DNA of 64,000 bases from NCBI GenBank assembly GCA_900317745.1, contig ONHW01000013.1, positions 20,886-84,885 on the forward strand. Direction: 5' to 3'. This stretch comes from an uncultured Bacteroidales bacterium. GTDB taxonomy: Bacteria > Bacteroidota > Bacteroidia > Bacteroidales > Paludibacteraceae. The position numbers and the translations under genes are program-made. Position 1 is the first letter of the stretch; each line of letters opens with the position of its first letter. Under the pieces are notes generated by a model. The model searched no databases and had not been told where the DNA came from. It saw nothing but the letters and a program-made list of their open reading frames with translations. Shown piece by piece: positions 13,333 through 33,958 of the stretch.

Positions 13333-16300
13333 TCAAAACCGCACTTTTTCGCCTGTTATGGAGTAAAAAATTCCATCTTTTTGTATGTATATCCTGCCAT
13401 CGCGCAGCACTTTATGAGCCGAACTTCCGGTATTCTGTTTTTGGCTGCCGGAGTTCTCACTGTCGGCAACTGTTTCCACACCGGTTATTACTATCGGTTC
13501 GCAGCGCCCCGAGCCATACACCTCAATCTCGTATAGCGATGAACCGTAGCCGGTGTTGCGCGTCTTGCACAGCAGTCGCAGGTATTGACCTTTGCTGCCT
13601 TCGGGCAGCGTGATCGTCTGTGTACCGCCCTTGGCACCGGTGGCGGCATATACGGTCTCATAATCTACGGCATCACCGCTGAGCATCAGGTCGTAAGAGG
13701 TAGCATAAGCGGTCTCCCACACCAGCCGCACATTCTCCAGCAGATAGCATGCGCCCAGATCGATCTCCACCCACTCGTTGTCTTTATGAGCCGATCCCCA
13801 GCGCGTATCCATCTTGCCGTCGTTCACGCCTTGAGGTGTCGTGCCGGCGTTCTCGTACGAAGAAGCAATCACGGGTTTGTTCAGCGCCAGGTTCATTGAT
13901 GCATACGGCTGCACATGGATAGTGGCTGTAGCCTCACCGCCCAGGCAGGAGTAGGTCTGCGTAAAGTTTCCTTCCGCCTCGGCGAAATAGGTGTAGTGGC
14001 AGGTCTCTGCGGCAAATCCGAACTGGTTGACGGCACTCACCTCAAACTCCTGCAGATCGCCTACGGGCATTGTTACCTCGGCAGGCGTGATGGTTACGCC
14101 TGTTATCTTTTCGCCCTCAAGCACGACGAGCGTGAGCGTTGCTGTCACGCCTTGTACGGTGGCGCTCACCAGCACCTCGCCTGCACCGGTGGTTGTCACG
14201 CGGCTGCCTTGCAACTGTGCTGCTCCGCTTACGATAGCGAACGTTGCTGTGCCGGCAATCACTTCGCCCTGCACGTTGTACGCCGTGGCGCTGAGTGTGG
14301 CGGATTGTCCCTCGGTGAGCACGGTATCCGTGGCTGCCAGAGCAACGGCAAACACCTTGCTTGCATCGCCCTCAAGCGGACGGCCGTACGCCTCAATCTC
14401 ATACAGCGAGGTGCCGTACGTCGTGGCGCGCTCCACGCCTGTCAGACGCAGATAACGGCCTCTGGACTCCATGTCCTGCGCCATGAGCAACTGAGCCAGC
14501 TCCACGCGCTCCGTGCCGCCGGAAGAAGCAAGAGTGATCGTAGTCCAATCAGTACCGTTTCGGGATAGTCCTATACTATACTTGGAGGCATACGCTGTTT
14601 CCCAGCGAAGAACAAGGTGGTCGATGTAACAGATCTGACCCAGATCGATGGTCACATACTCATTGTCCTTGTGCGTTGATCCCCAGCGCGTATCGAGCTT
14701 GCCGTCGTTCACGCCCTCAGGTTTCGTGCCGGCGTTCTCGTAACCGGAGGCTGTAACAGGTTTACCCAGTGCCAGGTTAGGATAAGGCAAATCCCAAGCC
14801 AATTCATCCTTCACATCCGAAACGTGTTCGTCGGCTATGGTGGCAGTCTCCTGCTTGCGCGAGCCGTCGGTAACAGTCAGACCGGGATTGACGGTCAGCG
14901 TTTTGTCAACGGCACCGAAAAAATGTACGGTGAGCGGAGCACCGGTTGTATTATAGACGGAATAGGTTGTATTGCCGGTCACCGGATCGGTGTATGCGCA
15001 TGCAAGCGCGCAATCCGACAATATATCATAACGCTTCTCGCCCAAGCCTTTGTGGCTGTGCGCCAACCAATAGGTTATACCACCTGTATCAGGATTCTTG
15101 GCAAGGGGTTTGCCGGCTTTATCCAAACGATCCCACACGCGAGCGGCACTGTCCGGTTCGAACAGCGACAGGTAGCTCAGGCATACGTTGCCCAAGCCCG
15201 ATTCATCGCCCAAGCCGCCCGTAGCAGCCTCGTAGTCGCCCACCTCTTTGCCTTGGTACATCTGCGTATAATCCCAACGGGTGAACTCAAGATCCTCGCA
15301 GAAGAAGTTCGTCAGTATCGGCGAAATGGGCAGCCATTGTATCGAGTGCATCCACACGGGGTCGCCCGAGAACCATGTCCACCAGCCTACGCCCTGCATG
15401 GTGAGGTTGCAGCAGTACGGGTGTTTGTATTTCGTATAATCAATGTTCCTGCGCTTGCGGTCGAACCAATACTCTGCGGCAGCACGTGTCTCGAGCGTGT
15501 AGCCGAATATACCTGCCTCAAGCATCTGTTGGTCGCCCAGTGCAGCACCAAGCATCCATACGCCACCCCAGCCCTGTATAGCCTCGCTGGTTGACTCCTG
15601 GCCGTTGCCGTTGCCGCCGTTGCCCATGCCGCCTGCAAACGAATGTCCGCAATACGGATCAAGGGTGCGGAACCAAGGCTCAAGCACCTCATTGCTTTCG
15701 ACTTTCGACTTTTGACTATCTGCTCTTTCCCAGTTGGCATAATCACGTGCCACCTCGCGAACGATAGCACCGTACTGCTCGCGGAAATCCGCGTCGAGCA
15801 TGCACAGCACAGCCGAGGCATAGACGAAATAGCCGTAGTGAAAATGGTGGTCGTTGAACGTATCACTGTCGTACGAGCAATCGAAGCCCACCAGTGCACC
15901 CCAGCGGTTGTAGCGCGCAAAGTACCTGCGCAGTTCGCCCGGGGTGTAGGTGTACCAATCAACCAGGTTCTCCTTGAGCCGCTGCTTGGCAAGGCGGAAC
16001 GTAGCCGTGTCGCCCATCTGCAGCGCAAAAGTCATGTAATGTGCCATTTGCGTCAGGCCTTTGCCGCCCCAGTACGTATCACCGCCGAACGTGCCGCGTG
16101 CAGCATAATCGGCGTTGAGCGCCTGCATCCGGTCAGCAGAAAAACCTTCCGCCCACTCCAAAGGCTTCGGGAAGAACGGCAAGAAGCCGTGCACCGTGTA
16201 GTTGAACGTGAAGTTGTTGCCCTCCAGCACTTTCATCGTGCCGCGCGGCGAGAGGTACTCGCCGGCAAATGCCGGAGTATCCGAACTGCCGTTCACTGTC

Positions 16301-17172: not shown

Positions 17173-17199
17173 ATCGAGTGAAATGGTGAAAATACGGTG

Positions 17200-17231
17200 C
17201 AAAGATACGTAAATTTATTTACATTTGCAAA
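17200..17231 (-). promoter_or_regulatory. Promoter of the GH81 gene
   Basis: Minus strand: -33 TTTG (17231-17228, within ATTTGCAAAT), 20-nt spacer, -7 TATCTTTG (17207-17200). The predicted start near 17193 supports translation from 17172. Confidence 0.8.
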
Positions 17232-17278
17232 TCCATTCACCCGATAGTGAAATATTGTGAAAGTGTTTTTGCGGAAAA

Positions 17279-20251
17279 TTATGCGTTTGACGTAATTTTA
17301 GTGAGGTAGTCTTTGAGGTTAGCCTGCGGGTCAAGATCCATCTTGCAGCGCATGCGGTAGCGCAACATCTCCACGCCTCGGGTAGATAAGCCCAGCATGG
17401 GTCCCATCTCTTTGGTAAGCATACCCATGTGAATATATACGCACAGTTTGCGTTCCTGTTTGCTCATCCACGGGAACCGTTCAGTCAGACATTTGCAGAA
17501 TCCTGCATTCACCTCGTCGAAGTTCTCCTCGAAGCGCTGCCAATCGATACTCTCGTCGCCGGCTTTGGAGGTGATATGCTGCTTGAGGTTGTTCAGGCGC
17601 TCCTCCACCTTCTTCAGATTATGCGTCTGCAAGTCGTGCAGACACTTGTCGAGTTGCTCGTGGGCAAATGCCAGATCTTCCTGCTTGATGACTTCCTCGT
17701 GCATGATTCGCGTCAGCTCCTGACTCTTGGCTTGCAAACGCGTCTGCGTACGGTCGTTCTCGAGTTGCAGGATACGCAGTTGCTGCTCATGCAACGCTTT
17801 GCGCTTCGAGCGGTCGGCAATCACGTACAGCACGTAGGCTACTCCGCTCAGCCAAAGCAGGGTAAGCACGGCAAACAGGCAGTACGCCCACCAGGTCATG
17901 TACCAGGGTGGCAGAACAACGAACTGCCAGGAGCGTGTCACCTCGGCAGGCAGTGTGTTCTCGGCAGCCGACAGACACTTAACCTGCAACGTATATCTCC
18001 CCTGCTCCAGCGACGAACACTCGTAGTACGCACGCGGAGTAAGCGGTGTGAACTCTTTGTCGCGAGGCAAGAGGCGGTAGGCGTACATTGTGTTACCTGC
18101 CGGCGTGCGGTCGATACTGCAACTGAATCGCAATGCGTACTCGTCGTACGGCAGCACGAACACCGTGGGGCAGTCTTCGGTTGAGCGTTGAGAGTTCTTA
18201 TCTCGGCAAGCCTCGAACGATCGGCTATAAGCCGTATGGAGAGTTGAGAGATGTTGAGCGTTGGGAGATGTTGAGGGTTGAGAGTGGAGCGTTGAGAGAC
18301 CGGCACTGCCTAAGGACTCGCCGTACACGGCTTTACCGTCGTGATTAACCATACTCACCTCGCGCAGATATATGGTCGGCACGGACGGTTCGGACGGCTG
18401 ACGGCTGGCAACGGATGGTTGCAGCATACTATACCCCTGCAGTGTACCGATAATATAGCCGTCGGCTGTTTCGTATATATTCTCGAACCCGCCAACGAAA
18501 TCGGGTTTGTTGCTATACAGCGGCTGTGCCGGCATATATGTCTCGCCTTGGCGGATGCGGATATACAGGGTGCCGTCAATGATAAAGAGGTTGTTACCGC
18601 GGCTGTCTTGCAGCATTTGTGCATAATAGGTCTCGCCTGCCAGGCAGTTGTTCATCAGGTTCTCGTCGTGCCGCAGCACGCCATCGGCACCTACCACCCG
18701 GCAGTAGTCAAGGCTGCTGATTACGATCTGCTCGCCCAGGCGGCTGATATTGATCCAATCGTGTGCCTCGTTGTAGGGGTGAACCGATTGGTTGTCAAAC
18801 GTCTGTTCGTCTGCCCACTGCAGATGCACGAGTCCTGCTGTAGCCACCGCCCATACTGCACCTGTGGGATCGACCTGCCAGCGGAACGCAGTATCGCCAA
18901 AGCCCTTGACGCGAGTTATCTGCCACTGACCGTTGGTCTTGTTCAGCACGCGGAAGCCCGAGTAACTGCCGGCGAGCACGCGTCCGTCGGGCAGCGGTTG
19001 GACCTTCCAGAACCCTTCGTCGGTGCAGAGCGGGAGCACACGCGAACCATCCACGATGAACAGTCCTCTGTTATGGCAGCAGAACACCGTGCCGTCTATC
19101 TCGCTCAGGCTCCACACCTGCCCCATACTGCCCTCAACGAGTTGGAGCGGTTTGCCTGTATTCGTCCTGACATACAGAGCCTGGTTGGTGCCGTAATAGT
19201 AACGCGTTGTGGCACCTTGCTGCACGCGCAGGGCGGCATAACCGGTGCCGAAGTTCGTCTGCTCGTCGCTTAAATACTGGCGTGTGGAAGCCAGTTGCAC
19301 ATAATCGATACCCTGATCAAGCCCGACCCAGAGGTTGTTGCGACTGTCGAATGCCATGGAGAGGATTGTATTGTTCTGCAGCCCTTCTTTGCGCGATACG
19401 AAGCGGCTGATCTTTCCGTCGGTAGTCACCACGGCTATGCCCTGCAGCACAGTGCCCAAGGCTATCTGGTCGCCACGCACGGCAAACGTATAGAGCTGGT
19501 TCTTGCGGATGAAAGCATCTGCCTCGGTGCGGTAGGGCGCGATACGCGTGCCGTCGTACTCGTACAATCCGCCCAGGTCGGTGCCGATCAGCAAACGCTG
19601 TTCGTCCAGCGCCTGGATGCAACGCACCTCGTAGCCGCGGAGTATATCCGAGCCGTGAATACGGTTCATGCGTGTGCCGGTGAGCAGATACAAACCATCA
19701 TCCGTGCCGACATAGATTGCACCGCCTACCTCTTCGGCGCAGAACACGCGGCTGGCGGTAGATAGAGTACGCACATCCTTCAGCGAGATAGAGTCTGCAT
19801 CGCTGTACTCGGCTACAATAATACGGTGACGAGTGAAGATATACACCTGCTGACCAATTACTTCAATATCCCACACCTCGCCGTAGTCGGGAGATATATC
19901 TTCAGTCATGAGTGACGTATAGCGCATAGCGCCCATTGACGTAGGTGTGAAAACGCCGAAGTCGTTGGTCGCGCCTATGAAGATCGCCTTATCATCCAGG
20001 GCAGCAATGCTGCGCGGCAGGTTGCCATAATACATGCCATAGATACGCCACTGCGAACCGTCGTACTCGAGCAAACCGTAGTTGTTAGCGGCATATAGCC
20101 AGCCGTTGCGGGTGGTGAGGAGCTGCCAGTTCTGCGTGCCGGCACTGTAGTCGGCTACGGAGAAATTGGTGACAGGGATATTCCATCCGGCGTATGTCAC
20201 GGGTGACAGAGCAACCAGACAGATGAGCAGCAGATAGTGAAGTCGTTTCAT
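17279..20251 (-). CDS. SusR-like membrane one-component regulator (propeller, Y_Y_Y, TM, LuxR-type HTH)
   Basis: 990 aa from the ATG at 20251 (MKRLHYLLL); the open frame upstream overlaps the divergent aroC and is discarded. Signal peptide about 1-20; periplasmic beta-propeller repeats about 20-620 (WLYAANNYGLLEYDG, IYVGTDDGLYLL, LLIGTDLGGLYEYDG, NNLWVGLDQGID). A Y_Y_Y domain (about 696-783) is followed by one transmembrane helix (about 785-811), a coiled coil, and a C-terminal helix-turn-helix (about 926-985; SKQERKLCVYIHMGMLTKEM, GLSTRGVEMLRYRMR). No histidine kinase or receiver domain is present, so it resembles SusR rather than hybrid two-component sensors. It probably senses glucan oligosaccharides in the periplasm and controls the GH81 and susC promoters; this is inferred from position. 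Residues of about 645-695 derive from GTTGAGN repeats and look like an inserted loop. Confidence 0.85.
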   Translation of the reverse strand: MKRLHYLLLICLVALSPVTYAGWNIPVTNFSVADYSAGTQNWQLLTTRNGWLYAANNYGLLEYDGSQWRIYGMYYGNLPRSIAALDDKAIFIGATNDFGVFTPTSMGAMRYTSLMTEDISPDYGEVWDIEVIGQQVYIFTRHRIIVAEYSDADSISLKDVRTLSTASRVFCAEEVGGAIYVGTDDGLYLLTGTRMNRIHGSDILRGYEVRCIQALDEQRLLIGTDLGGLYEYDGTRIAPYRTEADAFIRKNQLYTFAVRGDQIALGTVLQGIAVVTTDGKISRFVSRKEGLQNNTILSMAFDSRNNLWVGLDQGIDYVQLASTRQYLSDEQTNFGTGYAALRVQQGATTRYYYGTNQALYVRTNTGKPLQLVEGSMGQVWSLSEIDGTVFCCHNRGLFIVDGSRVLPLCTDEGFWKVQPLPDGRVLAGSYSGFRVLNKTNGQWQITRVKGFGDTAFRWQVDPTGAVWAVATAGLVHLQWADEQTFDNQSVHPYNEAHDWINISRLGEQIVISSLDYCRVVGADGVLRHDENLMNNCLAGETYYAQMLQDSRGNNLFIIDGTLYIRIRQGETYMPAQPLYSNKPDFVGGFENIYETADGYIIGTLQGYSMLQPSVASRQPSEPSVPTIYLREVSMVNHDGKAVYGESLGSAGLSTLHSQPSTSPNAQHLSTLHTAYSRSFEACRDKNSQRSTEDCPTVFVLPYDEYALRFSCSIDRTPAGNTMYAYRLLPRDKEFTPLTPRAYYECSSLEQGRYTLQVKCLSAAENTLPAEVTRSWQFVVLPPWYMTWWAYCLFAVLTLLWLSGVAYVLYVIADRSKRKALHEQQLRILQLENDRTQTRLQAKSQELTRIMHEEVIKQEDLAFAHEQLDKCLHDLQTHNLKKVEERLNNLKQHITSKAGDESIDWQRFEENFDEVNAGFCKCLTERFPWMSKQERKLCVYIHMGMLTKEMGPMLGLSTRGVEMLRYRMRCKMDLDPQANLKDYLTKITSNA
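18180..18300. repeat. GTTGAGN heptad array inside the regulator gene
   Basis: At least eight recognisable GTTGAGN units lie on the plus strand in two blocks (18180-18193 and 18243-18297), separated by non-repeat sequence. On the coding strand they give Ser/Thr/Leu-rich residues just before the Y_Y_Y domain. Confidence 0.8.
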
Positions 20252-20274
20252 GACAAGGAGTGTAATTTTCGTAT

Positions 20275-20302
20275 GTTGAGTGTTGAGATTTGAGAGTTGA
20301 GC
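20275..20302. repeat. Four-unit GTTGAGN array in the regulator leader
   Basis: Four 7-nt units (KTTGAGN) fill most of the predicted 5' untranslated region between the promoter and the regulator start. Confidence 0.8.
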
Positions 20303-20312
20303 GAATCGGGCA

Positions 20313-20344
20313 CAAAGATACAAAAAATTTAGGATATTTGCAAA
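20313..20344 (-). promoter_or_regulatory. Promoter of the SusR-like regulator
   Basis: Minus strand: -33 TTTG (20344-20341, within ATTTGCAAAT), 20-nt spacer, -7 TATCTTTG (20320-20313). It faces away from the aroC promoter. Confidence 0.78.
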
Positions 20345-20390: not shown

Positions 20391-20407
20391 CACCGAAAAT
20401 AGGGTAA

Positions 20408-20468
20408 GTTGAGAGTTGAGCGTTGAGCGTTTAGCGAAGTTGAGAGTTTAGCGTTTAATAGTTTAACA
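20408..20468. repeat. GTTGAGN/GTTTAGN heptad array in the aroC leader
   Basis: About eight 7-nt units, with one 3-nt interruption, occupy nearly the whole region between the promoter and the aroC start codon. Confidence 0.8.
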
Positions 20469-20480: not shown

Positions 20481-21482
20481 ATGAACAGTATAGGTGATAC
20501 CTTTGTTTTTACCTCGTTCGGCGAGAGCCACTCTGCTGCTATCGGCGGTGTGCTGGATGGCGTGCCGGCAGGTCTGCATATCAACTTCGACATGATCCGC
20601 GAGGCACTCGACCGCCGTGCGGGCAGACAATCACTCAGCGGAGCTGTCTCACCCCGTGCTTTGCGCGAGGCGGATGAGATCGAGTGGCTGAGCGGAGTTA
20701 TCTGTACGAATCGGACGGATAAGACGGATGCGCAGGAATATGTCACCATAGGTACGCCTATCGCGTTCCTTATACGCAACCGTGACGCGCGGCCGGAGGA
20801 TTATGAGGCACTCAAGCACTCTTTCCGTCCTGCGCACGCCGACAGCACCTACGAGGCGAAGTACGGCATACGCGATTGGCGCGGCGGTGGCAGGGCTTCG
20901 GCACGCGAGACAGCGGCACGCGTGGTGGCAGGCAACATTGCCGCACAGATGTTGGCGGAGCGAGGGATAACAATCAAGGCACAACTCGTGCAGGTAGGTG
21001 CAGAGACCAACGCCGAACGGTTCAGCGAGCATATACGCCGCTATCAAACCGAAGGCGACAGCATAGGTGGGATCATTCGCTGCGAGGTGACAGGTCTGCC
21101 GGCAGGGTTAGGCGAGCCTATCTTCGACAAAATGCAGGCGCACCTGGCGTATGCAATCATGAGTATCAATGCCTGCAAAGGTTTTGATTACGGCAGCGGC
21201 TTTGCGGGCGTGAGCGAACCCGGGTCGGTAGCCAACAGGCAGAGCGGCGGACTGCTCGGAGGGATAACAGACGGCACTACGCTGTCTTTCCGCTGCGTGT
21301 TCAAGCCTACGCCCACCACCCCGAAAGCACTGAAGCAGATGCAAAACGAGCAAATGCAAAATGAACAAATGGTAAATGAAAAAATAGTCAATCGTTCTGA
21401 TGCATGCGTGGCGGTGCGTGCCGTGCCGGTGGTGGAAGCCATGACCGCCCTGGTGCTTGCGAACTTCATCAGCCTGGCGTGA
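20481..21482 (+). CDS. aroC: Chorismate synthase, divergent
   Basis: 333 aa, somewhat shorter than the usual 350-360. Converts 5-enolpyruvylshikimate-3-phosphate to chorismate using reduced FMN. Markers present: SFGESH near the N-terminus, RPAHADSTYEAKYGIRDWRGGGRASARETAARVVAG, GSGF, SGGLLGGITDG, FKPTP and AVRAVPVVEAMTALVL. Oddities: GESHS where GESHG is usual; an extra segment with TNRTDKTDAQ before the TIGTPIAF strand; a shortened stretch between GSGF and SGG where most family members carry a GSEHND-type loop; a repeat-derived QMQNEQMQNEQMVNEK segment; and RSDA where RHDP is usual. The two catalytic His positions appear kept. It may be active but diverged, or decaying. It has its own promoter. 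Confidence 0.85.
   Translation: MNSIGDTFVFTSFGESHSAAIGGVLDGVPAGLHINFDMIREALDRRAGRQSLSGAVSPRALREADEIEWLSGVICTNRTDKTDAQEYVTIGTPIAFLIRNRDARPEDYEALKHSFRPAHADSTYEAKYGIRDWRGGGRASARETAARVVAGNIAAQMLAERGITIKAQLVQVGAETNAERFSEHIRRYQTEGDSIGGIIRCEVTGLPAGLGEPIFDKMQAHLAYAIMSINACKGFDYGSGFAGVSEPGSVANRQSGGLLGGITDGTTLSFRCVFKPTPTTPKALKQMQNEQMQNEQMVNEKIVNRSDACVAVRAVPVVEAMTALVLANFISLA
21348..21395. repeat. Short-period repeat inside aroC
   Basis: Imperfect repeats of ATGCAAAACGAGCAA type (about 15 nt, built of 7/8-nt halves) encode the Gln/Asn/Glu/Met-rich insert between FKPTP and the RSD motif of AroC. Confidence 0.65.
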
Positions 21483-21600: not shown

Positions 21601-21626
21601 TTTATAGGGGGTGTGGGGGAGTTGAC

Positions 21627-21689
21627 TATAGTCGCACTTTTGTTGTCTATAGTCGCACTTGTGGTGTCTATAGTCGCACTTGTGGTGTT
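21627..21689. repeat. Three 21-bp direct repeats
   Basis: Units start at 21627, 21648 and 21669, each beginning TATAGTCGCACTT and ending KTKGTGTC with few changes. The period of 21 equals three 7-nt steps. There are no spacers, so it is not a CRISPR array. Confidence 0.85.
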
Positions 21690-21725: not shown

Positions 21726-21834
21726 TCGATAATGGATCGATGTTGGCTCGATAATGGCCCGATGGAACGGAACGAAATTCGTGCTGTTCGATCGGGGTTT
21801 TGTCGGGGTTTTATCGAACTTTCGCCGAGGTTTT
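21726..21834. repeat. 11-nt-period repeat array with conserved block (copy 1)
   Basis: Units of 11 nt starting TCGAT occur at 21726, 21737 and 21748, followed by the 16-nt block CCGATGGAACGGAACG (21759-21774). After a short break the 11-nt period resumes with reversed-looking units (21792, 21803, 21814, 21825). Confidence 0.8.
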
Positions 21835-25100: not shown

Positions 25101-26679
25101 CATCACCGGTCTAACACCTGCACGCTCGTACCAGGTGCGTCTGTTGCCTGCATGCTCGGCTGAGGAGGAAAGCAACTGGACAACACCGGTGTTCTTCATG
25201 AGCAATTCGGTTGAGAGCACACCTTACTACAAGGATTTCGAGAGTGAGACTGCCGGCGAAGTACCGTTCAACTGGAGCAGGGTTTCGGCATCCGAATATC
25301 CGCAGATCAGTTATGACGCGTATGCTTATCATGATACGTTCGGAGAGAAAGGCAACAGTATCAAGTTCTACGGCACCAACGACCAGATCATCGTTCTGCC
25401 CGAGTTCAGCACCGCACTGCGGGATCTCAGCATCTCGCTACACTACCGCAACCGCGACTGCAAGATGGAGTTAGGTTACGTAGCCTCGGACGGCACTACG
25501 TTCACCGCTATCGCTACCCTGCCCAACCAGACAGGCTACGGCGAGTTCCCCTACGAGAAAGTGCTGAAGAACATCAATGCCTCGGCATACAAACTTGCTA
25601 TCCGCTACAGCGAAGCTACAGGAGCAAGTTCGCAGGCGTTCGTTGACAACGTGCGGGTAGAAGAGCCTACCTGCGGTCAGCCGGAAGCACTGACCTTAGG
25701 CACTGTTACTGCCAACAGCGTTGAACTGAGTTGGAGCGTATCGGAACTGGGCACAGAAACCCAATACCAGTATATCCTGCGCCCATGGAACGAAAGTAAT
25801 CCTAACTGGGCATCAGCAACTCTGCTCGATGGTGTACGCTCGATCAGCCGCAGCGGTCTGAGTGCCAACACGAATTACGAGTTCTACGTCCGTTCGTACT
25901 GCGATGGTAGCCACCAGAGCACGCCTGTACACATTGAGTTCAGGACAGAAATGCTTGAAGAGGTGTTTGAGGACATAGCTACCGCCACAGACAACCAAAC
26001 TCGTCTGGCAGCACTCGTAGGGCAGACGCTGAACATAACCATCAACCGTCCGCTGACGCTCAACGGAGACTACTGCACATTGACACTGCCGTTCAACCTG
26101 AGTGCGTCACAGATAGCCGATCCCGAATGTCCGTTGCACGGATTCGTGATCAAAGAGTTTGAGAGTTCGGAGGAGAAAGACGGAGCAGTGAACGTCTATC
26201 TGAATCAGGTATATGCCATTGAAGCCGGTAAACCGTACTTTGTACGCTACGGCGGTGCTCCATCCGACAGCCGACTCACTCCGTTGCAGTTCAAGAATGT
26301 AACGGTAGCATGCAGCACGCCTGTGGCAGCCGTTGACGAAGGCTTCACGCCGCACGGAGTATTCAACCCGTACAGCCTGATTGCCAATGATGCAAGCACC
26401 CTGTTCCTCTCGTCAGCCAACACATTGTACTATCCGTCAGCAGACGGCACGATGAACGGATTCCGTGCATACATCAAGGTGAGCGGCAGCATGGGCGCAC
26501 CTATACGCCGCGGTGCACCGGTACGTATCTGCGAACGCGAAAACGTGGCTACGGGCGTAATAGACAATAGTCAAAAGTCGAAAGTCGAAAGTCAAAAGTC
26601 GAAAGTGCTCATTGACGGACAGCTGCTGATCATACGTGACGGCAAGACGTACAACGCACAGGGACAACTGATCCGATAA
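22111..26679 (+). CDS. Large secreted FN3/beta-sandwich surface protein with C-terminal tail
   Basis: 1522 aa. Signal peptide about 1-26. Residues 27-188 form a beta-rich domain shared with the next two large proteins (TYNYN, LESDDRTLEGLYS, HTYNYFYSYKYD). Then FN3 modules (about 190-270, 448-525, 718-800, 950-1025, 1190-1290) alternate with about 150-residue beta-sandwich domains of MAM/cleaved-adhesin type (FETG...CWGEL, FVDNVSVHKEPTC). A C-terminal domain (about 1295-1485; LNGDYCTLTLPFNLS, AGKPYFVRYGG) follows, then a heptad-encoded SQKSKVESQKSK linker and the tail VLIDGQLLIIRDGKTYNAQGQLIR. No enzyme motif is seen. An adhesin or glycan-binding role at the cell surface is likely. It heads a four-gene co-directional cluster. 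Confidence 0.8.
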   Translation: MKIKQLFLSGLLTALLCVVGTNNVCGATYNYNTVIQSIEVIQSDAITTNQFTLNITQKGVNSGGSSYSSTMTMVLESDDRTLEGLYSTLSSATNKLKSADLIYSTNVRALNTTTSKFKINKVSDGHYSIGDPSSNTDCQLHFKQTSPSNNHTYNYFYSYKYDSGTSGTATTFNQFAFDFTPKYAVAPTSVSASAVGATTATIGWTSSESAWQYVCLPATTTLTEDLWTSNAVSVNTKSVNLTGLTPATRYKFYVISDRGASGTSVIVSTEFTTECETVSLPWSYGFETGVTNNQTPLCWGELKCTGSTNGYVQATTLAKKAGTYGLRIAGGRSSSSPKSEVIAVFPEFEEEISNLELSFYYKTDMDIIDPDWGNTIYGKLQLGYVTNPSNAATFVAVGEPLDQKSTFTPQTESIVMSSAPSGARFAILYTGGENLGFASIDDITVREKPACNKPAGVSAGSETAEGATITWNANGMSTWKLQVSEGDAASWGEEIDVATNSKELTGLNSNTLYYVRVKADCGGGSVSEWSDNVSFTTLCGTVSVSASASWNMDFEGLSDHIVPDCWDNSASTTTSSWGAGYIWGTYSRGGNTMLAMSNSSLDGGTALMNTPAIAIPNDGNTYELTFDHSNMAPVGNNLIVKISANGGAFADKGTYYPSGNVSSYPGTFTKATISLADYSGKTIKIQFFANPTSGTSSEGGAMFVDNVSVHKEPTCFAPTALTFSSLTSASAQVSWTNGGEESAWRLQYRTTEGSWSAEQVVSSKPYTLTGLSANTEYLVRVKSYCAADDQSEWSEVGSFTTLCAAASMPFSESFSSASELPSCWEATSTVSNGWSAYEKSGAYSVQLRTGSSGEAELRMPAINLSEAAILRFEWKNANGANANIYISTNGGTTKTLLANDLSNVHSDWTTKIFDLSTYTGETVLIYFKSQFSSINQYAYLDDIEVVARPCDMILNIQVTSGATISWIGNVKKLQYKTGSDAWSSVTIPSGEYSGPKTITGLTPARSYQVRLLPACSAEEESNWTTPVFFMSNSVESTPYYKDFESETAGEVPFNWSRVSASEYPQISYDAYAYHDTFGEKGNSIKFYGTNDQIIVLPEFSTALRDLSISLHYRNRDCKMELGYVASDGTTFTAIATLPNQTGYGEFPYEKVLKNINASAYKLAIRYSEATGASSQAFVDNVRVEEPTCGQPEALTLGTVTANSVELSWSVSELGTETQYQYILRPWNESNPNWASATLLDGVRSISRSGLSANTNYEFYVRSYCDGSHQSTPVHIEFRTEMLEEVFEDIATATDNQTRLAALVGQTLNITINRPLTLNGDYCTLTLPFNLSASQIADPECPLHGFVIKEFESSEEKDGAVNVYLNQVYAIEAGKPYFVRYGGAPSDSRLTPLQFKNVTVACSTPVAAVDEGFTPHGVFNPYSLIANDASTLFLSSANTLYYPSADGTMNGFRAYIKVSGSMGAPIRRGAPVRICERENVATGVIDNSQKSKVESQKSKVLIDGQLLIIRDGKTYNAQGQLIR
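26563..26604. repeat. GTCRAAA heptad linker in the FN3 protein gene
   Basis: Six 7-nt units (one GACAATA, then GTCRAAA) total 42 nt, encoding 14 in-frame residues directly before the C-terminal tail. Confidence 0.85.
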
Positions 26680-26908: not shown

Positions 26909-28429
26909 ATGAAGAAAACATCACTGATACTTGCGTTGTGCCTTGCCGTGATGGCAGGCAACGCCGCGACGTACAACTACCTGTGCGCCATAACCGAGTT
27001 GAGCGTTGACACGCTCGCCAGCAACAGCAAGAACCAGTTCACGCTCCAGTGGACGCAGAAGTGCAAGAACATAGCCGAGTACAGCAGCAAGCCTACCGGC
27101 ACATACACGACAACAGTGAAGCTCGTGCTGAACTCCGACGACCGCACGCTGGAGGGCACTTACACCACAGAAGGCGCGAGTCCCACGAGCAGCAGCGCTA
27201 ACGTTAACGACCAGACAATCAACCTGGTGACCTCTGAGTTGTACTACGGCAGCACGCGCCGCTTGCTGCGCACGGATTCGATATCCACGTTCACGATCAT
27301 CAAGATCGACGACACGCACTACGGCATTAGCGTAGGCAGGTTATGCTTCACGGCAGCCTCGCTGGCTGACCGCAACAAGCACACATACAACTACAACTAC
27401 TGCTATGCCGAAGAGGAGATACTGGTACAGGGCATAGACCCCAAGCCGTACATTTTCGGCTACGAGAGCGGCTACCAGGCACAGGTGCATAATTACGACA
27501 TGAGCGTTACGGGCATTGATGTAGAGCGTTCGGATACTGAGTTCGGCGCACGCCGTTACTTTGTAACGCTGAACTGCACGGGCACAAACCGCGAGACAGG
27601 TGCTGCGCACAACTACGAGGCGCAACTGGCTATCTATCCCACCGGCGAATCGATCGTCGGCTCGTTCGCCACACAGGGCAGCAGCGACATTCTGATGGCA
27701 ACGAACAGTTACATCAAGGACAACAACGCCGGCAAACTGCGTTACCTGTGCAACGACTCGCTGAGCACGATACAGATCAAGTTGAAAGGTGAGAACCAGT
27801 ACTCGTTCTACGGCGGCACGCTGCTGTGCGTGGATATGGACGCAAACTACAGCGCCGTATATGGCAAGAAACGTGTAGAGGCAGTACACTACTACCACTT
27901 CAGCGACAATGAGGGCGAGGGCGTACCCTTCGGTTGGGATGAAACGAACAAGACTGCCCAGCTGACCCCCACCAAGGTGACTGTCACGCCGGTGACGGAG
28001 AGTGAGGAGATTGTGGGTTACCAGTTGCTCGTAAAAGCGAACTCGGCAAACGGCATACAGTACGAGGCACTGCTGGATATAGACGCGGCTCTACTTGACG
28101 GCACGTTCAGCGTGAACGAGGGCACACTAACGCTGTGGTCGAAGGTCGGTCACGGTGCAGCAGAATCGTACGTGACAAACGGTGCCACCGTAAGCATCAC
28201 ACCGAAGACCGGCAACACCCACACCCTGTCGGCAAACCTGCTATGCGAGAACGGATACACCTATACCCTGCAGGCGTTCGACTTCAACTACGGCGAGGCT
28301 GTGGGAACAGGAGTAGAAAGTCAAGAGTCGAAAGTCGAAAGTCAAAAGTCGAAAGTGTTGCGCAACGGACAGTTGCTGATTATCCGTGACGGAAAGACCT
28401 ACAACGCACAAGGTGCACAACTGCAATGA
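26909..28429 (+). CDS. Secreted protein of three ~140-aa repeat domains, with tail
   Basis: 506 aa from the ATG at 26909 (MKKTSLILALC); the earlier in-frame ATG at 26867 gives no signal peptide. After the signal peptide (about 1-19) come three copies of a beta-rich domain (about 20-165, 175-320, 335-475). Shared features are a start of T/S-x-x-x-V-type strands, an L-x-G-T/S-F/Y hairpin (LEGTYTTEG, IVGSFATQG, LDGTFSVNEG), and an end with alternating Tyr (HTYNYNYCY, VHYYHF, YTYTLQAFDFNY). The first copy resembles the N-terminal domain of the FN3 protein. A GTCRAAA-coded linker and the tail VLRNGQLLIIRDGKTYNAQG follow. No known family or enzyme motif recognised. The stop overlaps the next start (ATGA), so the two are coupled. 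Confidence 0.72.
   Translation: MKKTSLILALCLAVMAGNAATYNYLCAITELSVDTLASNSKNQFTLQWTQKCKNIAEYSSKPTGTYTTTVKLVLNSDDRTLEGTYTTEGASPTSSSANVNDQTINLVTSELYYGSTRRLLRTDSISTFTIIKIDDTHYGISVGRLCFTAASLADRNKHTYNYNYCYAEEEILVQGIDPKPYIFGYESGYQAQVHNYDMSVTGIDVERSDTEFGARRYFVTLNCTGTNRETGAAHNYEAQLAIYPTGESIVGSFATQGSSDILMATNSYIKDNNAGKLRYLCNDSLSTIQIKLKGENQYSFYGGTLLCVDMDANYSAVYGKKRVEAVHYYHFSDNEGEGVPFGWDETNKTAQLTPTKVTVTPVTESEEIVGYQLLVKANSANGIQYEALLDIDAALLDGTFSVNEGTLTLWSKVGHGAAESYVTNGATVSITPKTGNTHTLSANLLCENGYTYTLQAFDFNYGEAVGTGVESQESKVESQKSKVLRNGQLLIIRDGKTYNAQGAQLQ
28313..28354. repeat. GTCRAAA heptad linker (second protein)
   Basis: Six 7-nt units (42 nt) encode a 14-residue ESQESKVESQKSK-type linker before the C-terminal tail. 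Confidence 0.85.
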
Positions 28430-30357
28430 AACGACTCGTACTGACCACACTCATCACTCTGGTTGCTGTACTGCACGCCGCAGCGGCATTCAACCTGACC
28501 GCATCGAGAGTGACGATTGAAGATATGACGGTTGACAAACCGAACTACTTCGTTACCGTGGCTGCCGCTACATCCACGGGCGAATATGAGGTAGCGTTTG
28601 ATATATGGCCGGGCAAGCAGTCACCGGTAGGCTCGTTTACGGCTGCGGAAAAGACGATCAGTTATGTCAGCAGTTACGTCCATAAGACGCGCGCGAACGG
28701 CAGCGCGGTGAACATGTGGTACTACCCTGAGCCGGATGCAACTATCAGTCTGACAATCACAAACAACGGCGACGGCACATGCAAGCTGAGCGGCTCGATA
28801 GACGCCACACGCAACGAGGTGACGTACACCTACGTAATTGCGCCGTACGACTTCGAGTACGATGCCGAGGATATACCCGAACCGCAGGAAGATCCGTACC
28901 GCTTTGAGCCGAAAGAAGTCACCTCGATACAGTTCAGCGCGGATGTGGTGAACTTCCGTCAGCGTGAGGGATACATCGAGATCACGCTCAACGAGATGGC
29001 TAACGAGACCTACAATTGGATTGAACTACGCCTGTTGTCGGACACAATGGCGTGGCAGGCAGGCACGTACGCAATAGACAACAGCGGCATAGCCGGTTCG
29101 CTGACCGCCTCCAAGGGTTACCTGGGCGGCACACGAGGCGATGATCCGTGCTACCTGGCTATACGTGCCGACAAGGAGAGCTGGGGACAATACACCCCGT
29201 ACTACCTCCAATCAGGCACGGTGGAGGTGAGTTACAACGCCGTGGGCGACACGATCATCGTGAGCGGCTCGGCACTGTCGTACAACGGCTCGACGGTTCA
29301 GTTCACGGCGCGCAGTTACAACATGTTGTTCGTACCCGAAGAGCAACCGCGCCAACCGGAGTTCGTCAATCTGGCTATCGACACCGTGCTGATCACTTAT
29401 CAGAGCGACCTGTCGGACAGCACGAAAGGCGAGTTCTACTACACGTTCAACTTCTTCAGCCGCGGCGGAGACTATCCGAACGTGCTGGTGGATATGATCC
29501 TGGACCAGCCTATGGCACTGACCGCCGGCACATACACGCTGGCTGACAACCAACTCATCGGACTGAACCTGTTCCAGAACCAGGAGGATTTCAATGCCGT
29601 GTTCTTCGGCGGTGAGCCGTACGTGTTCGCTACGGCAGCACTGACACTGAGCGAGGTGCAGGACGGCAAGTGGCAATACGCAATGCTCATAACCGACACC
29701 ATAGGCAGCGAATATACATTCGATTTTGCACAAGATCCGCATATCGTACACTACCCTATCCCCGTTGATCCGACCGAGGAGAAAGACAAGCCGTACATCG
29801 ACGAGCAGAAGACAGCCGTGACCGTCAGCGTGACCCTCGACTCGCTACTGTGGAACACGAAGTCGGTAAGCAAAGACGGCATATTGGATATCTACCTCAC
29901 GCAACAGAAAGCGGACGTTAACGGACTGAGAGCCTATCTGCATTTAGGGATGTACACCGACAGCGAGTACCCTGAGGCTGGTTCGTATGCCGTGAACGGC
30001 AGCGAAGAGAACGGCACGTTCAGCGCCTCGCTCGGACGGTTCGGGAACGTGCTTATCCCCTGCTACCTGCTGCTGATAGATGCCGAAGGCTGGGCGCACG
30101 CCGTGTGGTACATTGTGGACGGAACGATACGTATCGCTTACGACGCGCAGCAAGCGCCTGTACTGAGCGGTACATGCACCACGTACTTCGGTTCAACAAT
30201 CCACTTCACGTACGGAGATATAGATAACGGAGTGGAAGATGTTGTAGTCGAGAGTCAAAAGTCGAAAGTCAAAAGCAGGAAAGTGGTACGCGACGGACAA
30301 CTGCTGATCATACGTGACGGCAGGACGTACAACGCACAAGGACTGCAAGTCAAGTGA
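28426..30357 (+). CDS. Secreted protein of four ~140-aa repeat domains, with tail
   Basis: 643 aa. Signal peptide about 1-21 (MKRLVLTTLITLVAVLHAAAA). Four copies of the same beta-rich domain as the upstream gene follow (about 22-150, 160-305, 310-455, 470-605). Each has a strand starting T-x-x-x-V, a G-x-F/Y hairpin (SPVGSFTAAE, WQAGTYAID, LTAGTYTLAD, PEAGSYAVNG), a small-residue SSYV/PCYL strand, and a closing Y/F-rich strand (VTYTYVIAPYDFEY). A short GTCRAAA-coded linker leads to the tail VVRDGQLLIIRDGRTYNAQG. Its ATG overlaps the previous stop, so it should be made together with that protein. No enzyme motif. The domain could be a lipocalin- or carbohydrate-binding-like fold, but this is a guess. 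Confidence 0.72.
   Translation: MKRLVLTTLITLVAVLHAAAAFNLTASRVTIEDMTVDKPNYFVTVAAATSTGEYEVAFDIWPGKQSPVGSFTAAEKTISYVSSYVHKTRANGSAVNMWYYPEPDATISLTITNNGDGTCKLSGSIDATRNEVTYTYVIAPYDFEYDAEDIPEPQEDPYRFEPKEVTSIQFSADVVNFRQREGYIEITLNEMANETYNWIELRLLSDTMAWQAGTYAIDNSGIAGSLTASKGYLGGTRGDDPCYLAIRADKESWGQYTPYYLQSGTVEVSYNAVGDTIIVSGSALSYNGSTVQFTARSYNMLFVPEEQPRQPEFVNLAIDTVLITYQSDLSDSTKGEFYYTFNFFSRGGDYPNVLVDMILDQPMALTAGTYTLADNQLIGLNLFQNQEDFNAVFFGGEPYVFATAALTLSEVQDGKWQYAMLITDTIGSEYTFDFAQDPHIVHYPIPVDPTEEKDKPYIDEQKTAVTVSVTLDSLLWNTKSVSKDGILDIYLTQQKADVNGLRAYLHLGMYTDSEYPEAGSYAVNGSEENGTFSASLGRFGNVLIPCYLLLIDAEGWAHAVWYIVDGTIRIAYDAQQAPVLSGTCTTYFGSTIHFTYGDIDNGVEDVVVESQKSKVKSRKVVRDGQLLIIRDGRTYNAQGLQVK
30247..30274. repeat. GTCRAAA heptad linker (third protein)
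   Basis: Four 7-nt units (GTCRARA) run just before the C-terminal tail codons, followed by a partly decayed fifth. Confidence 0.8.
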
Positions 30358-30367
30358 TTGAATAGAT

Positions 30368-31249
30368 ATGAACACTATCTTTATCGTACTGCCTATACTC
30401 ACGCTGCTGATGTTCGACCTGGGTTTAGTACTCAAGCCGGAAGATTTCAGGCTCATTGTATCGCGGCCTAAGCCTGTGCTGGTCGGGTTGTTCGGGCAGA
30501 TCGTTCTGCTGCCGCTGATTGCGTGGGGAGTGATCTGTCTGGTGAACGCGCTCGGCGGTCAGCTGTCAGTGATCAGCTTATCTCCGCTGTTCGTGATCGG
30601 TATCATGCTGGTGGCGTGCAGCCCGGGCGGCAGTTCGAGCAACGTATTCTCAATGCTCGCCAAGGGCGACGTAGCACTGTCGGTGACACTAACGGCGTTC
30701 AGCAGTCTGATCACCCTGCTGACCCTGCCGTTGATCATGGCGTGGGTGACCGGCAGCGTAGGCGAGGCGGTGGATATACATTTGCCGGTAGGCAAACTGC
30801 TGGTGCAGAACATTGTGCTGATGGTAGTGCCTATATCCATAGGGTTTGTAGTTAACTTGTTCCACAGCCAGGCTGCCGAAAAGATTCACAACGTACTCAA
30901 GCGTATCGCTATGCCGGCACTGGTGCTGCTGGTGACGATCTTCTTCATTCAGCACCGCACCACCATAGCCGCGGAGTTTGCCTCGCTGGGACTCACAATG
31001 ACAGCCCTTATTCTCGCCAGCACAGGTTGCGGAGCGTTGCTGTCGTGGCTGCTGCGTCTGACGCAGAAGGAACGCCGCACACTGGTGATAGAGATAGGTA
31101 TGCAGAACGCCGCACAGGCAATCACCATAGCGTGCAGTCCGCTGATATTCAACAACGAGGTGATTGCTATCCCTGCTATCATCTACGCGCTAATGATGAA
31201 CCTGATCCTGCTCGCGTACGTAGGTATAACCAAACTGCAAAAGTCATGA
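30368..31249 (+). CDS. BASS-family (bile acid:sodium symporter-like) transporter
   Basis: 293 aa, nearly all hydrophobic, with about 9-10 transmembrane helices. Family markers: a first half with LMFDLGLVLKPEDF, then the conserved VACSPGGSSSNVFSMLAKGDVALSV segment and, in the second half, IEIGMQNAAQAI. These match the two crossover regions of BASS/SBF proteins, which carry organic anions (bile salts, 2-keto acids, pantoate and others) with sodium. The substrate cannot be read from sequence. It starts 10 bp after the repeat-domain protein and overlaps the HD-domain gene by ATGA, so it is probably co-transcribed with both, though a link in function is not evident. Confidence 0.85.
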   Translation: MNTIFIVLPILTLLMFDLGLVLKPEDFRLIVSRPKPVLVGLFGQIVLLPLIAWGVICLVNALGGQLSVISLSPLFVIGIMLVACSPGGSSSNVFSMLAKGDVALSVTLTAFSSLITLLTLPLIMAWVTGSVGEAVDIHLPVGKLLVQNIVLMVVPISIGFVVNLFHSQAAEKIHNVLKRIAMPALVLLVTIFFIQHRTTIAAEFASLGLTMTALILASTGCGALLSWLLRLTQKERRTLVIEIGMQNAAQAITIACSPLIFNNEVIAIPAIIYALMMNLILLAYVGITKLQKS

Positions 31250-31869
31250 ACCCCGACCTGCAACACTACATCGAGCAGACTATCCTGCCGCAGTACGATG
31301 CTTTTGATGGCGGTCACCGGCGCGACCATGCGCTGACGGTGATCGATGAGAGTCTGAAACTGGCGCAGCAGTACGGCGCCGACGAGCAGATGGCATACAC
31401 CATAGCCGCCTACCACGATCTCGGGCTGCGTATCGACCGAGAGTTGCATCATATACACTCCGGCGAGATTATGATGGCTGACCGAACGCTCCGGCAGTGG
31501 TTCACAGAGGAGCAGTTGCACGTAATGAAGGAAGCCGTGGAAGACCACCGTGCGAGCGGCAAGAACCCGCCACGTACGATCTACGGTGCTATCGTAGCAG
31601 AAGCCGACAGGCAGATCGAGCCGCTGACAGTCATACACCGCACAATGGCATACAGCGCCAAACTCTACCCTGGCGGTGATTTCAACACTTTATACGAACG
31701 CAGTCTGGAACATCTGCATGAGAAATACGCCGAAGGCGGCTACATGCGCCTGTGGCTGAACAGCGAACGCAACGTTCGCGGACTGAACGAACTGCGAGCT
31801 ATCATTCGCAACGAAGAGCACCTGCGCAGTTTATGCCGCGAGTGGTACGACGCACAGGCTAAGAGTTAG
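31246..31869 (+). CDS. HD-domain phosphohydrolase
   Basis: 207 aa from the ATG at 31246, which overlaps the BASS stop codon; the open frame upstream is antisense-like shadow. The metal-binding HD pattern is visible: HRRDHALTVIDES near residue 24, then IAAYHDLGLRIDRE (the His-Asp pair), HHIHSGEIMM, and a later VEDHRASG and VAEADRQIEP. Such proteins hydrolyse phosphoesters, often of nucleotides; this one is too short to carry extra regulatory domains. The gene converges on tex and the two overlap by 11 bp, with both stop codons lying in one palindrome. Confidence 0.82.
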   Translation: MNPDLQHYIEQTILPQYDAFDGGHRRDHALTVIDESLKLAQQYGADEQMAYTIAAYHDLGLRIDRELHHIHSGEIMMADRTLRQWFTEEQLHVMKEAVEDHRASGKNPPRTIYGAIVAEADRQIEPLTVIHRTMAYSAKLYPGGDFNTLYERSLEHLHEKYAEGGYMRLWLNSERNVRGLNELRAIIRNEEHLRSLCREWYDAQAKS

Positions 31870-33958
31870 CAGGCTTGAGGGATATACGGTTGCGTTCGCG
31901 GTCGATGCTGAGGACCTCAACCGTAAGGTGCTGATGCAACGCGAGCGTCTTGCCGCGGAGTTGCGAGACGTGAATCAAACCGTCCTTATGAATACCCATA
32001 TCCACAAACGCACCGAAATTGCTGATGTTCGTAACTATACCCGGCAGACTCATACCTTCCTGCAAGTCGTCGATTGAATGTACGGCTTCGGAGAAACGGA
32101 ACTCCTCAATCTGATTGCGCGGGTCGCGCGAGGGTTTATCCAGTTCGCGCCATATATCCTGCAAGGTGGGCAAACCTACCTCCTCGCTTACAAAATCTTC
32201 CAGCCGGACTTCCCTGCCTGACATTTTCGCCTGTTGCAGTCGTGCCGCCACGGCATATCGCTCGGGGTGCACGGCTGTGTTGTCGAGCGGGTTAGTGCCG
32301 CCGGCTATACGCAGGAAACCGGCACACTGCTCGAAAGTCTTCGCGCCCATCTTGGGCACATTGAGCAACGCACGCCGGTCGGGGAACGAGCCGTGCTCGG
32401 CGCGGTAGTTGACAATATTCTGCGCCACTACAGGTCCCACGCCGGAGATATACGTCAGCAGGTGCTTGCTGGCAGTATTGACATCCACACCTACATAGTT
32501 CACCACACTTTCTACCGTCTGGTCGAGGCTTCGCTTGAGTTCAGCCTGATCGACGTCGTGCTGGTACTGTCCGACACCAATGCTCTTCGGGTCGATCTTC
32601 ACCAGTTCAGCCAAGGGATCCATCAGCCGTCTGCCGATGCTCACCGCACCGCGGACGGTCACATCCTCGTTAGGAAACTCCTCACGCCCGATCTTCGATG
32701 CCGAATAGACCGAAGCACCGTTCTCGCTTACAACGAAAACGGGAATGGTTTCGTTGATTTGAAGATTTGAAGATTTCTGATTGGAAGATTGGAGTACTTC
32801 GCGGACAAACGCTTCGGTTTCGCGGCTGGCAGTGCCGTTGCCGATGGCAATAGCCTCTATACAATAATCGTGCAACGCCTTGAGCAGGATAGTTTCCGCC
32901 TCCGCACGTTTGTTAACCGGCGGGTGAGGACAGATAACCGAGTGATAGAGCAGGTCGCCCTGCGCAGACAGGCAAACGAGTTTGCAGCCCGTGCGGAAAC
33001 CCGGATCGAGTGCCAGCACACGTTTCTGCCCCAGCGGATTCTCCAGCAGCAGTTGGCGGAGGTTGGCGGCAAACACGCGTATAGCCTCGGCGTCCGCCTT
33101 CTGCTTGGAAGAGGCTGCGAACTCCGTTTCTATTGCCGGCTTGAGCAGACGTTTGTAACTGTCCTCCATCGCCTGCTCAACCTCGTAGGCTGCGTTGGAG
33201 TTGTTATGCAGCCAGAGGCGTGCCAGTTTGTCGAGTGCTTTTTCCTGATCGCAACTTATATCCACACGCACAAATCCTTCGGTCTCTGCACGGCGAATAG
33301 CCAGCAGGCGGTGTGAACTGATACGTTTGAGCGGTTCATCCACCGCAAAATATTCGCGGTAGTTAGCAGCCTCCTGTGCACGCTGAGCAGTGAGTTGCTT
33401 GATTTCCTTGGTGCGGATCATGGCTGTATATGCGAACTCGCGCCGCACGGCATTGCGTGAGCGTTCGTCCATACTGATCTGCTCGGCAATGATATCCCGT
33501 GCGCCCTGCAGGGTTTCGTCAGGTTTGCCGTAACGTTGTGCCTCACGGCGGCAATCGGTTCGCGGATCTTGCTTGAGCAGCAGGTCAGCCAAAGGTTGCA
33601 AGCCCGCCTCACGCGCCTTGTCGGCACGCGTCTTGCGGTGAGGTTTGTAGGGCAGATAGATATCCTCAAGTTCCACGCTATCCTCGCACTCATCGATACG
33701 CCGGCGCAGTTCGGGCGTGAGTTGCCCCTGCTCCTCAATAGTGGCGAGTACGGTCTGCTTGCGGCGTTCGAGTTCCTCGAGTTTGGTGTTCTCCGCCTCA
33801 ATGGCAGCAATCTGCAGTTCATCGAGCGAGCCAGTGCGCTCCTTGCGGTAGCGCGCGATAAACGGGATAGTGGCACCCTCGTGCAACAGACCGATAACGG
33901 CTTGCACCTGCTTCTCGCCCAAACCAAGGCGACGACTGATAACGGATGAGATATTCAT
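31859..33958 (-). CDS. tex: Tex-family S1 RNA-binding transcription accessory protein
   Basis: 699 aa from the ATG at 33958 (MNISSVISRRLGLGEKQV); the open frame beyond it crosses the promoter. Order: N-terminal HTH-like Tex domain with TIPFIARYRKERTGSLDE, YqgF/RNase H-like domain with VLALDPGFRTGCK and GNGTASRET, VVSENGASVYSAS, a helix-hairpin-helix region (ISGVGPVVAQNIVNYR, LLNVPKMGAKTFEQ), and a C-terminal S1 domain (GIVTNISNFGAFVDMGIHKDGLIHVS). Somewhat shorter than the common 720-780 aa. Tex aids transcription and RNA handling in bacteria. Between GNGTASRETEAFVREV and VVSENGAS there is a QSSNQKSSNLQINETI segment coded by an 8-nt-period repeat, in a position that varies among Tex proteins. 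Confidence 0.93.
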   Translation of the reverse strand: MNISSVISRRLGLGEKQVQAVIGLLHEGATIPFIARYRKERTGSLDELQIAAIEAENTKLEELERRKQTVLATIEEQGQLTPELRRRIDECEDSVELEDIYLPYKPHRKTRADKAREAGLQPLADLLLKQDPRTDCRREAQRYGKPDETLQGARDIIAEQISMDERSRNAVRREFAYTAMIRTKEIKQLTAQRAQEAANYREYFAVDEPLKRISSHRLLAIRRAETEGFVRVDISCDQEKALDKLARLWLHNNSNAAYEVEQAMEDSYKRLLKPAIETEFAASSKQKADAEAIRVFAANLRQLLLENPLGQKRVLALDPGFRTGCKLVCLSAQGDLLYHSVICPHPPVNKRAEAETILLKALHDYCIEAIAIGNGTASRETEAFVREVLQSSNQKSSNLQINETIPVFVVSENGASVYSASKIGREEFPNEDVTVRGAVSIGRRLMDPLAELVKIDPKSIGVGQYQHDVDQAELKRSLDQTVESVVNYVGVDVNTASKHLLTYISGVGPVVAQNIVNYRAEHGSFPDRRALLNVPKMGAKTFEQCAGFLRIAGGTNPLDNTAVHPERYAVAARLQQAKMSGREVRLEDFVSEEVGLPTLQDIWRELDKPSRDPRNQIEEFRFSEAVHSIDDLQEGMSLPGIVTNISNFGAFVDMGIHKDGLIHVSQLRGKTLALHQHLTVEVLSIDRERNRISLKPANS
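32756..32794. repeat. GATTTGAA-type array inside tex
   Basis: Five units of 7-8 nt (GATTTGAA, GATTTCT, GATTGGAA and similar) run in the tex coding sequence and encode the Ser/Asn/Lys-rich insert of Tex. Confidence 0.8.

Follow-up and report, generated by a model that had tools for sequence, protein, structure and literature searches.

Heptanucleotide repeat arrays in operon spacers and protein loops of gut Bacteroidales, and their turnover between close relatives

Palindromic repeat DNA can lie inside genes and be tolerated as an additional peptide, as in the Rickettsia palindromic elements, and in simple-sequence contingency loci a change in unit number switches genes off. Closer to the subject of this work are dispersed heptamers, cited here from excerpts of the published accounts. 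TAACTGA direct repeats occur in marine Beggiatoaceae, cyanobacteria and five Bacteroidetes, with forward copies (stops in three frames) at the ends of open reading frames (ORFs) and reverse copies inside ORFs, and the indels between two strains are mostly of 7 nt (MacGregor 2015, PMC4679880). Further heptamers are GGGAATC of Xanthomonas and GGGGA(C/T)T of Nostoc (PMC4692102). Here we describe tandem arrays, mostly of 7-nt period, in a 64,000-nt stretch of DNA (the window) from an uncultured bacterium of the Paludibacteraceae (GCA_900317745.1, contig ONHW01000013.1, positions 20,886 to 84,885), and in its relatives. The window belongs to contig C29 of a genome labelled G000 (2.6 Mb, 38 contigs). 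The arrays are probably dispersed elements of fast turnover, changing by unit slippage and by copying of blocks between loci, and filtered by coding constraint. The closest relatives as judged by Tex are metagenome-assembled genomes (MAGs) from ruminants and other guts, several of them Paludibacteraceae, the window's own species possibly being excluded; the comparison set comprised more than 29 further species of the genus, one genome per species.

Arrays were detected with Tandem Repeats Finder and an autocorrelation test, and are genuine in the window. Period-7 arrays no commoner than in shuffled sequence would have told against a preliminary description of this DNA, and they are commoner. 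At score 14 the window has 6 period-7 runs, and at score 12 it has 11; first-order shuffles (10 in one run, 30 in another) averaged 0.0. Over a 400 kb sample of G000 screened for tandem periods 1–30, period 7 accounted for 37 of 104 arrays, followed by period 11 (10) and period 10 (9); shuffles of 160 kb of this sample gave zero period-7 arrays. Genome-wide, GTTGAGN in three copies (at most one mismatch) had 186 matches versus 19 for the reversed pattern, and AGTCRAA in four copies 29 versus 0, overlapping windows being treated as separate matches. A 7-nt unit in at least three copies, above chance, and the identical unit at many unrelated loci are the marks of a heptamer-array class, and all are found here. 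Period 7 was likewise the most frequent period (16 of 43 arrays) in an outgroup sample of 74 loci (566 kb, mostly other Bacteroidales, all surrounding tex), at a density of 2.8 per 100 kb versus 9.2 in G000; ten congeners, 40 kb each, ranged from 0 to 20 per 100 kb. The longest among the arrays listed, a 243-nt CAAGAAC-type heptamer array (L138, 5111-5353), comes from another Bacteroidales MAG.

Every well-sampled genome contains several unit dialects, with no single dominant unit sequence. The tetramer TYRA lies inside the commonest unit of 37 of 68 arrays in G000, 40 of 70 in the congener G046 and 31 of 50 in its near relative G020, where 11% of random heptamers, or 20% of AT-rich ones, would be expected to contain it. 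The units AGTTGAG, AGTCGAA and AGTCAAA, being related by transitions, may form one group. A lone AGTCAAA unit was interior in 27 and terminal in 7 of 34 cases (among 70 listed AGTCRAA windows, tallied by eye; the windows overlap and are not independent), which is suggestive and not taken as proof.

The clearest view of turnover comes from G020 and G046 (RUG14576), for which 252 kb could be aligned at 93.9% identity (a first look at 44.7 kb gave 94.9%). Among 117 array entries (44 from G020, 73 from G046), 48 were kept, 25 partial and 44 replaced or absent, some having been exchanged for unrelated sequence; at C58 31165 of G020, the site of a composite block, the sister spacer has no array. So many arrays altered or swapped at this distance bear out the earlier suggestion of an active process. 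In-gene arrays were gone in 8 of 37 cases, compared with 861 of 13385 array-free control tiles (odds ratio 4.0, p = 0.002). Of the twelve in-gene length changes, ten keep the frame (differences of 63, 21, 18, 15, 12, 9, 9, 9, 9 and 3 nt); only those of 63 and 21 nt are whole-unit differences, and the other frame-keeping ones are mostly swaps. The remaining two are a change of 14 nt that ends at a stop codon and one at C33 7305 of G020, which lies within a larger rearrangement where the comparison extended beyond the gene. Unit indels of 7 nt and of 8 nt also occur between near relatives.

That the arrays are artefacts of MAG assembly or binning seems to us extremely improbable, although the named array-bearing records of the genus are MAGs and the 12 isolate records among the outgroup loci (about 8 kb or less each) contained zero period-7 arrays and one of period 14. 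Two separate assemblies closely share arrays, as the 48 kept entries show, and arrays stand in frame within conserved genes.

Besides changing in place, arrays recur with attached sequence. In 895 kb of G046 the tail AGAAGTC[GT]TCTAG (at most one mismatch) has 16 matches, every one directly after AGTTGAR-type units and three of them within one array on C12; twelve scrambled motifs, made without the ambiguous letter, gave 10 matches, none after such units. The count of AAGTCGTCTAG is uninformative alone (16 in G046 versus 26 for the reversed motif) and informative only by its position behind arrays. In G000 a core of about 46 nt, taken from a Y_Y_Y regulator of the window (18195-18241), is found at seven places, the window included: five at 95-100% identity, one at 79% and one partial at 88%. 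It has one match in G001 and none in G008, G021, G014 or G046. GTTGAG units continue beyond the query on the left in six of the seven copies and in three of these on the right too; the other three show on the right only the query's own unit, and the seventh is flanked by another array, and on the left side alone. The copies in the regulator and at L367 are read through in long open frames, that at L368 spans two short ones, and those at L363-L365 open stop-to-stop segments whose start codons are uncertain. The core folds as a hairpin (-9.1 kcal/mol); the arrays themselves are direct repeats. Counting 8-mers in array flanks had not yielded a recurrent composite in G000, only array-like words recurring, and the core was spotted by eye in the output. 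A phage vector was considered and dropped: AGTCGAAAGTCAAAAGTCGAA matches a single viral contig and the G046 composite none. On the viral contig L360, apparently G+C-rich, TTCGACTTTTGACTTTCGACT lies at 1507-1527 between gene-like stretches.

The preliminary description had spoken of a process that adds or copies 7-mers. Unit steps agree with addition, yet adding units locally does not account for the recurrence of blocks, cores attached, at unrelated loci. An origin of the arrays in place, by replication slippage alone with a polymerase that favours period 7, is for this reason an unlikely account, and the identical unit at many loci and the replacement of some arrays by unrelated sequence also speak against it. 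The 7- and 8-nt unit indels and the prevalence of period 7 in the outgroup loci fit it, as does the idea of a polymerase footprint, which PMC4692102 cites from its ref. 33. Simple loss of mismatch repair, with MutS as the protein tested, was rejected as a cause: MutS1 was above cut-off in 22 of 22 genomes, G000 included, a result that tells against slippage of that origin.

Core copies 95-100% identical at unrelated loci would also suit a mobile element that ends in arrays, lacks a transposase of its own and is moved by one of the host (RAYT-like or other). At four of the twelve changed in-gene sites (C3 29144, C9 2949, C58 3288 and C33 7305), a C-rich/G-rich element resembling repetitive extragenic palindromic (REP) sequences replaces the array in the other genome, as judged by eye, and Y1_Tnp is above cut-off in the array-rich G008 and G021 (the latter with one internal stop). 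We regard such an element as rather improbable: Y1_Tnp passes in only one further genome of 13 (G007), with single sub-threshold matches in G000 and G046 and none in G020 (other transposases were not surveyed), and no target duplication or terminal inverted repeat was noticed in the printed pairs, inspected by eye with no formal test. Of 22 genomes searched (82-96% complete), 8 encode RVT_1, among them the array-rich G014, but it is missing from G000, G001, G008 and G021. Addition by a reverse transcriptase (telomerase-like, or like a diversity-generating retroelement) was rejected on the same absence.

Position relative to genes was surveyed over 1.57 Mb from 13 genomes of the genus, with home-made gene calls and with G020 and G046 both counted. 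The 213 entries comprise 72 in genes, 112 in co-directional spacers (one being a run of N, which leaves 212 arrays of period 7, 14 or 21), 14 in divergent and 11 in convergent spacers and 4 at edges; period 21 makes up 10 of the 72 in-gene entries, some of them possibly codon repeats. With 140 of 212 outside called genes, the arrays are mainly intergenic. Insertion into conserved genes, the emphasis of the preliminary description, is real but a partial picture, about half of the arrays being in operon spacers. Among the 87 arrays in co-directional spacers of up to 300 nt (median spacer 71 nt), the distance from the upstream stop is at most 15 nt for 71, and the distance to the next start is at most 15 nt for 42. 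This last figure would favour a regulatory role, the arrays serving as binding sites in 5' leaders, which has been proposed for the TAACTGA repeats of Beggiatoaceae (PMC4679880) and which we consider improbable here. The raw strand bias (62 versus 20) is due to arrays touching the upstream stop (44 versus 8), and without them it vanishes (18 versus 12, 14 equal, p = 0.36), so that a directional regulatory signal was rejected; moreover, arrays also stand in genes and between convergent genes, and dialects differ at one and the same spacer. Away from gene ends, mid-gene arrays have fewer stop frames in the sense strand in 40 cases, equal numbers in 13 and more in 8, some of the 8 possibly being wrong gene calls.

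The features of the window are as follows.

1205..1235 (-), GATAATT-type array, reading NYQLSII on the - strand, in the apparent signal peptide (by eye) of a weakly GH16-like protein.
15695..15717 (-), AGTCRAA array in a GH81 protein, read SQKSKVES; the solved GH81 structure 6fop has a 10-residue gap there.
18180..18300 (-), composite block within the Y_Y_Y regulator's open frame, made up of GTTGAG units, the core and GTTGAG-like units.
20274..20301 (+), GTTGAGN array upstream of the regulator, scored in-gene because the ORF start was set too far upstream.
20407..20449 (+), GTTGAGN array directly upstream of aroC; G001 has a GGAATTAA-type array there.
21338..21395 (+), insert in aroC with a 15-nt repeat, MQNEQMQNEQMVNEKIVN; in 9 of 28 genomes the site has the short form PTPSTPKAG-KGRHDACVA or a close variant.
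26559..26606 (+), AGTCRAA array, linker VESQKSK preceding a C-terminal tail.
28311..28356 (+), AGTCRAA array, linker preceding a C-terminal tail.
30246..30275 (+), AGTCRAA array, linker preceding a C-terminal tail.
32756..32794 (-), 8-nt array TTCAAATC in the Tex loop, preceding VFVVSENGAS.
35056..35117 (+), GTTGAGN array reaching from one ORF's stop codon toward the next start.
37205..37240, palindromic REP-like element CCCTCCC..GGGAGGG adjoining an array.
37253..37332 (+), AGACAAA / AGAGGAT array with convergent genes on either side.
40409..40475 (+), GTTGAGN array overlapping the yidC stop codon; its G001 counterpart is an ATTGACG-type array.
42125..42186 (+), GTTTAG/GTTGAG array where ORF 41397-42134 ends (resembling a glycosyltransferase by eye only).
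42187..42226, palindrome, REP-like to judge from its sequence, flanked by two arrays.
42227..42245 (+), AGAGTTT array immediately before the next ORF start.

Four of the six strongest runs (20407, 35056, 37257 and 40409) are intergenic, and those at 35056 and 40409 overlap a stop codon. Many details of the preliminary description survive: the period of 7 (or 14) at 1205-1235, 15695-15717, 26559-26606, 28311-28356 and 30246-30275 was confirmed, and its GH16 assignment barely passes, at 22.3 bits against a cut-off of 22. Other points needed correction. A 7-nt period shared by all families holds for most, with the Tex array (8 nt) and the AroC insert (15 nt) as exceptions in the window; the array before Y_Y_Y does consist of heptamers, but as a composite with the core between them; and the three tail-bearing proteins have their linker arrays, but the tails, whose mutual likeness was judged by eye, match no sorting domain in Pfam or NCBIfam.

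That arrays are tolerated in loops and form linker peptides is supported. In DNA polymerase I, UvrA, RNase HII (at the C-terminus), glycogen synthase, an amylase/pullulanase, a TMEM260-like protein, GH81 and the tail linkers, AGTCRAA arrays read VESQKSK or variants of it; one in a flippase is possibly upstream of the start codon. Complementary, more hydrophobic readings are found in two N-termini, signal-peptide-like by eye (L184:5311 and the window at 1205-1235). Relative to solved structures, the GH81 array is a 10-residue insert with respect to 6fop, the Tex site is a shorter stretch in 2oce before VSEAGAS, and the AroC site is a stretch of variable length. Insertion is in frame within conserved genes (PolA, UvrA and GH81 among the cases), as in the Rickettsia palindromic elements. 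The uvrA gene of G000 (L190, 10384-13281) has three separate arrays of two unit families.

Other repeats were also seen in the window. A 30-nt tandem repeat, ACAGACCGCACCTAAAGGTGCTGACAGAAG, in three copies (41298-41392) resembles 23-nt repeats, GACAGACCGCTTCGCTGACAGAA, in L172, L177 and L188, and the two may represent a further dispersed family with palindromic cores. Arrays of the 11-nt unit CTCGATAAACC followed by a common CCCGATGGAACGGAACG tail form a recurrent composite at 38353-38406 and 46526-46578, with similar text near 21740-21775, and a 21-nt unit, CTATAGTCGCACTTGTGGTGT, is repeated three times downstream of aroC (21626-21688).

At the same sites relatives mostly have no array or another one, as comparisons of Tex, AroC and PolA indicate, and the preliminary description, which could have failed here, withstands this test; the exception is the Tex array ATCAGCC, common to the near pair G020 and G046. 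A Tex match beyond the S1 domain, or beyond short weak matches, was obtained in 11 of 30 searched genomes. By eye, the loop contains a repeat in seven of them, with periods of 8 nt (G000), 16 (G001), 7 (G024), 15 (G021), 7 (G020), 7/14 (G013) and 7 (G008), and none was seen in the other four. Among 80 named Tex loci, GGACAAT units occur in L092 and the G020 array recurs in L094; long unrelated inserts are seen in some Prevotella-like loci. The Tex frame changes at the AGTCGAA array in G008 (L041/L057) and near the ATTCAAA array, around residues 199-213, in G013 (L040/L058); this may be phase variation, decay or assembly error. In two other Bacteroidales MAGs (L096 and L102) the loop holds apparent REP-like sequence (LPRGGGEP, PSPFGEGSGVR), given which it may be a wider landing site. 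For AroC, 28 of 30 loci were comparable, and six of these have repeat-like inserts of differing sequence. The PolA linker, again compared in 28 of 30, carries clear period-7 arrays in three (G000, L296 and L299) and REP-like palindromes in L296 and L298. Spacers behave similarly: the arrays of G000 and G001 differ behind yidC, where identity is 80%, and ahead of aroC, where it is 70%.

These observations agree with dispersed arrays that turn over in three steps. In the first, unit number shifts between near relatives, including a single 7-nt step, as expected of slippage. In the second, whole blocks of array and attached core would be copied to unrelated loci, a mechanism that we infer from the pattern of recurrence; the likeliest route would be short-homology copying between arrays (template switching or ectopic gene conversion) and not a dedicated transposase. 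In the third, coding constraint decides survival, as array positions show: stop-bearing units last past the end of translation and sense-open units in loops and linkers, and in-gene changes are largely frame-keeping. The outcome is dialects proper to each species. Since 7 is coprime to 3, a regular array of stop-free units gives one heptapeptide in every frame, and an array can, as a matter of arithmetic, enter any frame. One may tentatively go further and see the arrays as adaptors readable in all frames, whose cores and units host short-homology recombination copies between loci without a transposase of their own; operon spacers and protein loops would then be rewritten into species-specific dialects within a few percent of divergence. 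We put this forward as a possibility about which we have considerable doubt.

Several points weigh against dispersed arrays of fast turnover as outlined. No copying enzyme or donor-recipient event was seen. The G046 tail was chosen from array sites, and the G000 core query included about one unit per side. The turnover estimate comes from a single close pair, both apparently MAGs, of which G020 has a completeness of 63%, and loci with arrays in both genomes enter the count twice. Spacer arrays were gone in 36 of 80 cases, other spacer DNA in 348 of 986 (odds ratio 1.5, p = 0.09), and are not clearly less stable than it; the instability of in-gene arrays could be a property of loops rather than of arrays.

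Even so, the arrays seem to furnish gut Bacteroidales with small in-frame protein changes on a continuing basis, a natural supply of frequent loop and linker alterations in core proteins such as DNA polymerase I, UvrA and Tex. With them an old question, why bacteria have an excess of heptamer repeats and how these spread, can be put to the test, and composite blocks, together with sister genomes that lack some of them, offer recent events usable for finding the mechanism.

Like the Rickettsia palindromic elements the arrays lie inside genes, but they are direct repeats, with only the G000 core forming a hairpin; like contingency loci they change in unit number, but ten of twelve in-gene changes keep the frame. 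PARCELs (PMC2996958) too are in-gene repeat DNA read as additional peptide, but palindromic. Constant-size, variable-sequence tandem repeats of Bacillus (PMC8161180) share the combination of one favoured period with several unit sequences per genome, although their periods are 52 and 20-21. Our searches of the open-licence literature turned up nothing on this genus or on the in-frame exchange of arrays in Bacteroidales. The Xanthomonas and Nostoc heptamers (PMC4692102), as far as described in the excerpts, are likewise degenerate, dispersed, largely intergenic and variable in length and sequence between relatives; the present arrays are not G-rich, and 48 of 117 entries are kept at 93.9% aligned identity, a figure whose measure and distance differ from theirs. 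With the TAACTGA repeats (PMC4679880) they have in common dispersed, largely intergenic heptamer arrays. TAACTGA, in the parts of that account used here, has a single dominant unit, with in-ORF copies mostly peripheral or in small hypothetical proteins, whereas the arrays described here have many dialects, loops of housekeeping proteins, attached cores and in-frame swaps. They are a variant of already known dispersed heptamer repeats.

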